The notes beneath the pieces were generated by a model, which saw only the letters and a list, made by a program, of their open reading frames with translations, was not told the DNA's origin and made no database searches. A DNA stretch of 64,000 nucleotides from Haloprofundus salinisoli (GTDB lineage: Archaea; Halobacteriota; Halobacteria; Halobacteriales; Haloferacaceae), in contig NZ_CP083663.1 in the NCBI RefSeq assembly GCF_020097815.1, forward strand, positions 1,302,001-1,366,000, in the 5' to 3' direction. Positions 22,885 through 52,300 of the stretch are shown here, piece by piece; positions within the stretch are counted from its first letter, which is position 1; each line of letters opens with the position of its first letter. The position numbers were made by a program, and so were the translations under genes.

Positions 22885-23049
22885 ATGCAGTGCCACTACT
22901 GCGACCGAGATGCCGCTTTCGCCGCCGGAAAAGACGGCATTCGAGTCGGTCTCTGCGAGCAGCATTTCCGTGAACGCATGGAGGAACTCGCCGAATCCGA
23001 CGAGCTGCAATCGCTGCGGGAGCGGCTCGATGTCGACCGAGCCGAGTGA
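22885..23049 (+). CDS. Small zinc-finger protein (DUF6757-like)
   Basis: 54 aa. CHYCDRDAAFAA and CEQHFRERMEELAESD give a C-C-C-H zinc-knuckle pattern followed by a helical charged tail. I recall this haloarchaeal family as DUF6757; the function is unknown. A GGAG sequence lies just before the ATG. It follows the PHP gene by 26 bp and may share its transcript. The last seven codons are echoed 55 bp downstream. Confidence 0.8.
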   Translation: MQCHYCDRDAAFAAGKDGIRVGLCEQHFRERMEELAESDELQSLRERLDVDRAE

Positions 23050-23083
23050 GTATTTTGCGGCGAGCGACGGTCGGCATCGAGAG

Positions 23084-23104
23084 GACGTGGACCGAGCCGA
23101 GTGA
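23084..23104 (+). repeat. 21-bp echo of the zinc-finger gene 3' end
   Basis: The last six codons and stop of the gene at 22885-23049 (DVDRAE then TGA, 23029-23049) recur here with 19 of 21 bases identical. Both differences are silent (GAT/GAC and GTC/GTG) and the stop is kept. The spacer starts GTATTTTGCGGCGAGC, resembling the TTTTTGCGACGA in the polC 3' spacer. Confidence 0.65.
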
Positions 23105-23196
23105 GCCTCGGACGAACTCGCTCCGGGCAGTTTTGCGGAGCAGAGCACGGCCGACGAACGTCTTCGATTCGACCAGCCGTCAGCGACGGCGACGGG

Positions 23197-23727
23197 TCAG
23201 CGTTCGAGTTCCGACGCCAAGAGCCCGAACACGCGCAGGTCGACCCGTCGCCCGCCGACGAACTCCTGTTCGCGGAGAACGCCCTCCTCGCGGAAGCCGA
23301 GTTTCTCGAGCACCCGCACGGACGCGGCGTTGGGTTCGCGCACGCGGGCGGTGAGTTTGTCGAGGCGGCGTTCGTCGAACGCGTAGCGCGCGAGCGTCCG
23401 CGCGGCGTCAGTCGCGTAGCCTCGGTCCTGCGCCTCCGGCGTAATCCAGTAGCCGAGTTCGGCGTTGCCGTTCGTCTCGTCGAGGTCGTAGAAGAAGCAG
23501 AGGCCGACCGCCCGGTCGTCGACACAGACCAGAAGCGTCTCACCGTCGTCGCTGCCGACGACCGACTCGAAGTAGTCGGTCGCCGCCGAGAGGTTCATCG
23601 GGCGCGCGTCGCCGAGAACGCGACGGAACGTCGGGTCGTTGCGGTGGCGAGCGATGAACTCGCGGTCCTCGCGCTCGACGGTCCGGAGTTCGACGCGGTC
23701 GCCGACGAGGAAGAGGGGGCCGGGCAT
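23197..23727 (-). CDS. GNAT-family N-acetyltransferase (RimJ/RimL type)
   Basis: 176 aa from the ATG at 23727; a GTG five codons earlier is possible. LFLVGDRVELRTVEREDREF is the usual N-terminus, with GNAELGYWITPEAQDRGYAT carrying the acetyl-CoA-binding loop and NAASVRVLEKLGFREEG the C-terminal signature. It most likely acetylates a protein N-terminus or small amine. It stands alone and the substrate is unknown. Confidence 0.9.
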   Translation of the reverse strand: MPGPLFLVGDRVELRTVEREDREFIARHRNDPTFRRVLGDARPMNLSAATDYFESVVGSDDGETLLVCVDDRAVGLCFFYDLDETNGNAELGYWITPEAQDRGYATDAARTLARYAFDERRLDKLTARVREPNAASVRVLEKLGFREEGVLREQEFVGGRRVDLRVFGLLASELER

Positions 23728-23796
23728 GGTCGGGACGTCCACGCGACGACGGAAAGTAACGTCGGCCGTCTGAGAGACGAGTGCGAAACAGCGACG

Positions 23797-49269: not shown

Positions 49270-49311
49270 TTACATGAAGTCCGCGATGCCGCTCTGTTTG
49301 TTCTTATCGTT
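49270..49311 (-). repeat. 42-bp echo of the polC 3' end
   Basis: Thirteen codons plus stop (NDKNKQSGIADFM) of polC recur here, 119 bp beyond the true end (49389-49430). Four of 42 bases differ: GAC/GAT, AGT/AGC, GGT/GGC and stop TGA/TAA, so all differences are silent. Homology ends sharply before the first Asn codon. Confidence 0.9.
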
Positions 49312-49324
49312 CTGCGACCACCTT

Positions 49325-49388
49325 TTTACTCCTCAGGCCGCGCTTCGCGCCGCCTTCGTCGCAAAAATCTGGACCAAAAAGGAGTAAA
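49325..49388. repeat. Spacer with 9-bp inverted repeats between polC and its tail copy
   Basis: TTTACTCCT (49325-49333) and AGGAGTAAA (49380-49388) are inverted and flank 46 bp that include GC-rich inverted sequence (CGCGCTTCGCGCCG) and AAAAATC/ACCAAAAA tracts. On the minus strand the T tracts just after the polC stop may serve as terminator. The arrangement looks like a small element inserted between the two tail copies. Confidence 0.5.
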
Positions 49389-52300
49389 TCACATGAAGTC
49401 CGCGATACCACTCTGTTTGTTCTTGTCGTTCTCGAAGACGCTCTCCAGGCTCTTCTTGAGCACTTCGAGGCGCTGTTTCGTGTAGTCGCGGCAGCCGAAC
49501 TCCTCGGCCACCTCGATGGCGGTGTCCATGTACTTGTTCACGGAGCCTTGGTGGACCGTGAGATTGACGCGCCCGCCGCACTCGCGGCAGTCGCCGGTGA
49601 GCGGCATTCTCCGATACTTCTCGCCGCAGTCGAGACAGCGCGTCTGCTGGCGCGAGAAGGCGCGGAGGTTGCCGATGAGGTCCGGCAGGAAGTGGTACTC
49701 GATGACGCGCTCTGCGACGTCCGTCTCGTCGACGGCGCGGAGTTTCCGCGCGAGGTGGAGCTGGGCGTCCATCTTCTCGGTCATCGACCCGAGCGTCTTG
49801 TAGGCGGAGAGCGCCGGGCCGAGGTGGATGTTCGAGGTGTCGTGGGTGTGGCGGAACTCCGAGTATTCGAGGTCGGTGCCCAGGTTGTCCTCGGCGATGG
49901 TGATGAGGTCCTCCACGTCGCCGGGGTCGACCATCTCCCGGGTCGCCTCGTAGAACTCCCGCGGGTACTGTCGCACGATGTCCATGTTGTGCGCCTCGTC
50001 GTCGATTTCGGAGGGGTCGATGCGCGAGGACATGACCAATGGTGCGTCCATCTGCCCGCCCCGTTTGTCGGGGAGAAACTCCTTCGAGAAGTTCAGCAGG
50101 CCGTCCATGAGGAGCATGACGCAGTCCTCGTCGCCGTCGCATTGACCGACGTAGAGGTCGTTGGCCACGAGCGTGTGCGTCTCCTCGACGGTGAGACAGT
50201 ACGTATGCTCTATGTCACTTTCGACGTACTCGACGGAGACAACTTCGTCGAGGAGTACGTCGCCACCGTCGCCGAAGAGCCGTTGCGAACGGAGTTCGGT
50301 CGCCGCCAGCACAGTATCTATCGTGGTTTGCTTCCGTTCGAGATGGAATCCGATTTCTTCGGCGAAGCGAACGGCGTTCTCCGAGGTTATCTTGAGAACG
50401 GTCGTCTCGAACACCGGTGACTCGTCGTAGAACTCAGCAACGACGCCCGAATTGACGGTGCGAACCTCGGAGTACGTCTTCGCCGCGATTCCGAACCGCT
50501 TGAGAAGACCGACGAGATCCTGCGAGAGTTCGTCACTAACCGTATGGGCACGAATCTCGATGCGGTCACCGGAGGCACTGCCGTCTCCGCTGAAGTACGC
50601 GGCGAGGAATGCGGCGACAACGCCGCGAGTGGAGGAAGTCACACAATCCGGAACGCGCTTCGACTCAGCACGGCCGCCTACGTCAAGGACATCAGAAAAC
50701 AGTGCTGTGACGAGGCGGCTGGATACCGTCACTTTCCACTTGTTCTCCTCGTAGGCCCCAATGCCGAGTGCGTCGGCGAAAGCGTCGATGACTGCCGTCC
50801 GTGCCTCTTCGTCTGGAATACAGATGGTCGTCTGGTAGAACTGGCCCACTTCACGCCGAGTAAACCCCTCAGCCGCGTAATATCCGAGGAGAGTGCCAAC
50901 GTCTTCATCGACCACTAACTGACGGGAAACGGTTGCCGTATCGCGGCGGATACCGAGATTGACTTCGGTAGGAACGAGGTCAACGATGTCGTCTTCGCCG
51001 ACCAGTTCGATGAGGATACTGACGGGGATGCTGTCTCTACTAACCCAGTTGTAGACCGTCGATTGACTAACTCCGAGCGTCTCGGCGGTAGCTTTACAGT
51101 AGCCTTTGCCGGACGTTGCATCGTCTAGCAGTGCTTTGAGTTGCTCGGTACCGAAGCCTCGAATTACGAGGTCTTCGTTCGGAATCGACTCGATGGCGAG
51201 GAACTCCTCTAAGAGGTCGACGGTGACATGATCTCCGTCGAAGGAAACAGCCTCCGGTGCGGGAAGTTCGTCGCCGACCAGGAGAGACTGAGCCTCTACT
51301 GGTTCGAGTCCTCGGTTCCATCGTCGGAGTTTGTGATCAGCTGTTACAATGAGCGTGCGACCACTCCGCGTTTCTACTTGAACCAAGTGGTCGGGTGACT
51401 GATGCTTCGAGATCGACTCCACACGGCTCAAGCACGGGCTGTCGTCGGGGCCAACAGCAGGAACGAGAACGTCTTCGTCCAACTCCTGCACTAGCGTCCC
51501 GAAGTCGTCCGTCTCAGGGTCGTCGAGCCGCGCTTCGACCAGCGATTCGATACTGTCGTAGTGCCACTCGCCCACCTCGTCCTCGAACCACACCTTCGTT
51601 TCCGGGTGGAAGCAGTTCCGACGCTTCGCGGCGTGGAAGTACGGATGCGCGTACCCCACCGCCGCGCTCGTGAACCCGACGACCCGCCCGACGACCGCCG
51701 CGGAGGTGTGCGGTGCCATCCCGAAGACGAGTTCGCCGATGAGGTCGTCGCGCTCGTTCACCTCGTAGAAGGCGGGGAGTCCGTAGTAGCTCTCTAGGAG
51801 GTCGTCGACGAAGTTCGCCGTCTTCAGCATGTGCTCGGCCGCGCCGTCCGAGAGGACGATGTCCTGCACTCTGAGTTCGAGCAGTTGGTCGTCGTGGCGC
51901 AGCGGTTCGCCGTCGATGTCGCGCTCGTAGCCGAGTTCGCGGAAGTGTTCGGCCGTCACGTCCAACTCTTCGGGTCTGACGGCGGTGACGGGCAGGTCGG
52001 TCATGTCGTAGCGGACCGTCCCGTCTTTGAACGCCGTGACGCCGTGTTTGGCGCGGAGAATCCCTTTCTCGATGGCTTCCGGCGTCTTGTGCGCCGAGGT
52101 GAGCCCCTTCACACCTTTCAGAATCTTGTACGAGGCTTTCCGCTCGCCGACGGCGTCCAAGGCCTCGGTGAGTTCGCGGCCGACGTCGACGTCGTGCCAG
52201 TCGGGGCTCTCGACGTCGCGCTCGCAGCGCGGGCAGACAACCCGACCACCTTCGTCGGGCTCGACCTCGATTTCGCAGTCGGCGCACTCGTAGTACGGTT

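Follow-up and report, generated by a model that had tools for sequence, protein, structure and literature searches.

The echoed 3' tail of the DUF6757 gene in Haloprofundus salinisoli belongs to a short tandem array in which the final codons of the gene are complementary to an inverted copy located in the spacer

Introduction

The closest described counterparts of the locus reported here are the pre-termination hairpins of Haloferax volcanii, the hairpins made by template switching, and minisatellites. In H. volcanii, 503 termination sites are preceded by hairpins, and a hairpin that was tested within a coding region terminated 59% of transcripts (PMC7237163). Template switching is known both to create and to correct hairpin arms, and in doing so it mimics compensatory change (PMC8794818); as in quasipalindrome mutagenesis, the product is an inverted copy that sits beside its source, with arms that stay complementary. 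Minisatellites (VNTRs) that undergo concerted evolution consist of fixed-length tandem units. A further source of repeated gene tails is the integration of mobile elements, which is usually recognised by direct repeats of the 3' end of a gene that differ at silent sites.

In this work, we describe a repeat at the end of a gene of H. salinisoli that resembles each of the first three systems in part. As in H. volcanii, a putative RNA hairpin would lie at a haloarchaeal transcript end and partly within coding sequence; however, here the last codons supply one arm, the loop contains the stop codon, and the predicted hairpin is repeated in tandem together with copies of the coding tail. As in template-switch hairpins, an inverted copy lies beside its source, to which this locus adds direct tandem copies, an overlap with the coding 3' end and a sense-strand G-U bias. 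The two to four copies, more alike within than between genera, recall minisatellites, yet here the first unit encodes the C-terminus of the protein, and turnover would filter all units as coding sequence.

The gene concerned encodes a DUF6757 protein. This family is nearly universal in Halobacteria (289 of 292 genomes). Our literature search found no paper that mentions it, nor did we find a solved structure for a relative.

Results

The echoed gene tail and its hairpin

The window, i.e., the whole 64,000-nucleotide stretch of contig NZ_CP083663.1 that was analysed, carries on its forward strand a gene for a 54-residue zinc-finger-type protein (22885–23049, stop codon at 23047–23049), assigned to DUF6757 (PF20542; Pfam, 1.6e-31 over residues 1–54 of 54). 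The intergenic region behind it is bounded by a convergent GNAT acetyltransferase gene (23197–23742, reverse strand; Pfam Acetyltransf_3, 3.2e-29). The end of the DUF6757 gene, DVDRAE-stop at 23029–23049 (+), reappears at 23084–23104. Tail copy 1, GATGTCGACCGAGCCGAGTGAG (23029–23050, +; DVDRAE-stop plus a G), and tail copy 2, the echo GACGTGGACCGAGCCGAGTGAG (23084–23105, +), are 55 bp apart from start to start. They differ at two positions (GAT/GAC and GTC/GTG), neither of which alters the residue encoded in the frame of the gene. The initial annotation, which had reported that the last six codons and the stop recur 55 bp on with these silent changes, was exact in this respect; it overlooked an inverted copy of the tail inside the spacer.

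At the end of the gene, an inverted copy thus stands between two direct copies, and the stop codon falls in a hairpin loop. Stem arm A, TCGATGTCGACCG (23027–23039, +), lies in the final codons (..L D V D R) and covaries with positions 23068–23080 across 13 species. The loop (23040–23067, +) takes in the final two codons together with the stop. Arm A', CGGTCGGCATCGA (23068–23080, +), is the inverted tail copy and forms 13 of 13 standard pairs with arm A, in this genome 12 Watson–Crick pairs and one G-U. The echo, conserved a few nucleotides after A', begins a truncated second unit. Folding of the sense-strand RNA from 23023 to 23106 yielded the A:A' hairpin (−35.6 kcal/mol, z −2.45), while the opposite strand gave a different structure with a z of −2.25. 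Single-sequence folds were therefore only moderately better than shuffles on both strands, and their similar z-scores mean that folding energy alone picks no strand. No Rfam family matched above its gathering score in the window.

Chance is an unlikely origin for this echo, since tails swapped among the 836 gene ends of the genome would give about 0.1 downstream matches of at least 19/24 in total. In line with this, the tail 22-mer, with up to 3 mismatches allowed, occurred three times in the window, at both copies and at one further site with 3 mismatches, whereas shuffles led one to expect 0.01 such sites. The conservation of the layout in other genera, described below, rules chance out and bears out the initial view that the DUF6757 echo is not an accident.

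Distribution of the array among Halobacteria

The direct-inverted-direct layout was found 3' of DUF6757 in 15 species from five genera and two families. The carriers are all five Haloprofundus genomes and members of four further genera, represented by G010, by G011 and G290, by G163, G415 and G416 (family f1), and by G016, G064, G133 and G309 (family f6). The array is decayed in G417 and G418, and it is absent from G307, which belongs to a carrier genus. It was not seen at the other DUF6757 loci read, including those of Haloferax, Halorubrum, Haloarcula, Halogranum and Halobacterium. Any function of the array must therefore be dispensable, given its absence from most Halobacteria and from G307.

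Each array consists of two to four tandem units, head to tail, with a spacing of 54–59 nt in intact arrays. Most carriers have two copies, G001, G010, G011 and G309 have three, and G416 has four, while the third copy of G415 is degenerate. A constant unit length with variation in copy number is the pattern of a minisatellite, and so is the greater likeness of units within a genome than between genomes: in G001, G011 and G309, the units are near identical in loop and arms, while loops differ between genera. Moreover, each unit of an array can have its own matched arms, as in G416 and in G010, where unit 1 has GTCGATCG/CGATCGAC and unit 2 has GTGGACCG/CGGTTCGC.

A covariance model built from 13 species recovered units in G415–G418, which were outside the training set, and gave no strong match off this locus in the genomes searched. 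The array was also considered as a dispersed repeat, and this was rejected, as off-locus matches of the pattern or the model were weak or coding-like. One of them, at G000:C1:621920, lies inside a long open frame and is apparently coding. Weak model matches in genus g14 of family f7 cover DUF6757 and the tail of a convergent ferredoxin-like gene. The latter has D-V-D codons on the other strand, which also read GTCGACGTCGA, an agreement that we take to be coincidence.

As a separate observation, DUF6757 is followed by a convergent ferredoxin-like gene at L077, L086, L103, L220 and other loci in families f7, f12 and f13. On the opposite strand, the 3' codons of the ferredoxin-like gene have the sequence GTCGACGTCGAT, which is complementary to that of the DUF6757 tail, and the two transcripts could pair with each other.

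Covariation of the arms

In the alignment of 13 species, 98.8% of the 169 stem cells form standard pairs, whereas slid alignments of the stem were only 20–46% paired. Four stem pairs have changed on both sides, which amounts to 16 double-changed cells. The covariation score was 0.338, compared with 0.186 ± 0.021 in shuffles, and none of 500 shuffles reached it, so that compensatory changes exceed those of shuffled controls, as in a structured RNA. RNAalifold recovered the identical 13 pairs unprompted. When arms were exchanged between species, they paired less well (permutation p<1e-5, a value uncorrected for phylogeny among related species). Column 8/51 alternates between C-G and G-C, both within Haloprofundus and within the f6 genus, a switch for which there is no path through G-U.

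The non-Watson–Crick pairs of the sense RNA in these 13 species comprise 13 G-U against one A-C, a count that leaves out the position just past the stem and one G-G pair. The commonest G-U, in column 7, may be a single shared state, in which case there are fewer than 13 independent G-U cases. A further count of departures gave 15 G-U to two A-C. The length of the loop and the gap stay steady while the sequence of the loop diverges among genera.

Reading frame and unit turnover

In the last 18 nt, 23 of the 28 differences between tail and echo are at third codon positions, and there are also amino-acid changes in the echoes of G003, G290 and others. The spacing of 54–59 nt covers all residues modulo 3, and the frame of the echo differs among species. 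As the spacing is not constant modulo 3, the echo has no constant reading frame, and it is probably not translated.

Within genus g29, G163 and G417 begin with a unit (..GAACGAGGACGCGGTCG) that corresponds to the second one of G416, and the first unit of G416 matches those of G415 and G418. This comparison, read by eye in one genus and hence support rather than proof, suggests that deletions swap downstream copies into the gene end. The differences would then be mostly silent because turnover of units turns copies into coding ends, where they are filtered as coding sequence.

The polC locus and gene ends at large

The initial annotation had paired the DUF6757 echo with one at polC (DP2) and had seen in the two cases a single repeated process. 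At polC (window 49270–49391, reverse strand), a second version of the tail NDKNKQSGIADFM-stop lies about 119 bp downstream; the two differ by silent changes and in their stops (TGA/TAA). The polC spacer is a dispersed haloarchaeal inverted-repeat element, TTTTTGGTCCAGATTTTTGCG...GCAAAAAGGTGG, of which Haloprofundus and other genomes contain many copies. Like the DUF6757 array, this element follows an echoed gene tail and has an inverted repeat; unlike the array, it has many copies per genome and a different sequence, and it is absent from the DUF6757 spacer. Among 12 genomes examined, the polC echo was present in G000 and G002 only, and the second copy of G002 reads DDMNTQSGIADFL, with amino-acid changes. 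Given an echo confined to two species, a spacer made of a dispersed element and the survey below, a single repeated process finds no support.

The likeness of TTTTGCGGCGA in the DUF6757 spacer to the polC spacer is literally true but not conserved in relatives, as the other Haloprofundus genomes have TTTTACGAGCGA, TTTTACGAACGA, TTCTACGAACGA or GGGTGAAAGA at this place. Likewise, the motif TTTTGCGRCGA, put forward as shared by the spacers, has two exact copies in the window and is not conserved in relatives.

Among 17 other copies of the dispersed element, one, in G001, was accompanied by a long echo and 16 were not, one of which was poorly aligned. At the former (L198, G001 C1, about 1450474), the far side of the element carries an echo of a 57-nt gene tail (..PESDDIVAYLEETYGSAS-stop) that departs from it by a single silent change and in its stop codon. 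Copies of the element, a stem between TTTTTGGTCCAGATTTTTGCG and GCAAAAAGGTGG (L190–L206), are mostly at gene or tRNA 3' ends, and the window copy has no Rfam match; the element may be a terminator family.

A scan for tail repeats near gene ends, of the kind that the initial annotation had proposed, covered 800 kb plus the window (864 kb), where genes were called crudely from codon-position GC. The 24-mers ending at the stop recurred nearby (at least 19/24) in 5 of 835 genes, compared with 0–5 of 835 at eight other offsets, so no clear excess at gene ends was detected in the 864 kb, and a general process that copies gene tails is not seen. One tail echo met in this survey, at concatenated positions 461912–463588 (reverse strand; L138–L177), has CGACGGTGCTTCAGACACGACTGA recurring 61 nt downstream as CGATGGTGTTTTAGTCACGACTGA (20/24).

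Discussion

On balance, we favour the view that the DUF6757 end carries a minisatellite whose units form hairpins at the 3' end of the mRNA, and that slippage, template switching and probably RNA-level selection maintain it. The array, its inverted arm, the covariation, the conservation, the variation in copy number and the lack of a fixed reading frame can be read from the genomes themselves, and unit turnover finds support in one genus, g29; template switching, an RNA function and a role in termination or protection are what we infer. The 3' end of DUF6757 is the first unit of the array, with a unit of 54–59 nt made of the last codons and stop (A), a loop and the inverted tail (A'), the next unit beginning a few nucleotides later and often being truncated. 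The D-[V/I]-D codons form a perfect or near palindrome, TCGAYRTCGA, from which fold-back template switching may have produced A' and slippage further copies. Units would expand, and recombination between copies would delete them, each deletion promoting a downstream copy to the gene end, so that downstream copies would once have been filtered as coding sequence. In the sense mRNA, the A:A' hairpin is predicted to form around the stop codon and might serve 3'-end formation or protection between convergent genes. Such a role is favoured by the convergent neighbour in the window and by the H. volcanii hairpins ahead of termination sites. A T-run after the echo (23131–23134, +) is a possible transcription stop, and because TTTT occurs within 45 nt past the last copy in only 8 of 17 species, we regard termination as an inferred step.

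The strongest competitor, which we consider possible although clearly the less probable, is purely mutational: fold-back template switching and slippage at a palindromic end would make and re-perfect the copies, and the RNA would have no selected function. Arm A has the sequence TCGAYRTCGA or a near form, self-complementary at 10/10 positions in six and at 8/10 in nine of 17 species, and arm pairing is retained in later, non-coding units (9.3/11 versus 10.1/11 in first units). Furthermore, since template switching can create and mend arms (PMC8794818), covariation alone is no proof of an RNA function. Nevertheless, correction alone predicts A-C as often as G-U, in conflict with both counts given above, and a loop length and gap that stay constant although the loop sequence varies also speak against it. 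These constant lengths, together with the excess of G-U pairs, are the arguments for selection at the RNA level.

A translation-coupled switch appears doubtful. In it, A' would pair with the gene tail in the absence of a ribosome and with the echo when a ribosome is at the stop, the echo being kept as an alternative partner. A short-loop hairpin of A' with the echo can form (88.8% of cells pair), and it reaches 11–12 bp in G004, G016, G064 and G163. However, covariation between A' and echo is weak, and at positions that distinguish the two copies, A' agrees mostly with the gene tail (G000, G002, G003, G010, G290 and G309) and seldom with the echo (G133 and G163). We attach a similarly low probability to an extension of the minisatellite proposal, a self-renewing mRNA 3'-end device in which any unit could serve as gene end with the protein unchanged, and the stop-adjacent unit would respond to translation through A:A' melting and A'-echo pairing.

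It is very improbable that the repeat was left by a mobile or integrative element that entered the gene end and rebuilt the tail from its own version: the gene-end direct repeats with silent differences have the appearance expected of it, but there is no payload, the units of about 55 nt are in tandem at 54–59 nt with an inverted copy in each, there is one locus per genome with no dispersed strong matches, and the site neighbours are PHP-domain and GNAT genes, not integrases. We give equally little credence to the echo as an alternative C-terminus translated by frameshift or readthrough, for despite the concentration of differences at third codon positions, the spacing varies modulo 3 and the echo frame differs among species.

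The locus is a clean natural case of a minisatellite that overlaps a conserved coding end, in which silent-only differences can come from turnover and not from translation of the copy. It is a warning that silent-only repeats by themselves are no evidence of a copying mechanism. The carriers also provide a defined set of genomes in which to ask if the covariation of hairpin arms stems from selection on the RNA or from correction by template switching. For the haloarchaea, the array adds a candidate structured 3' end to their mRNAs.
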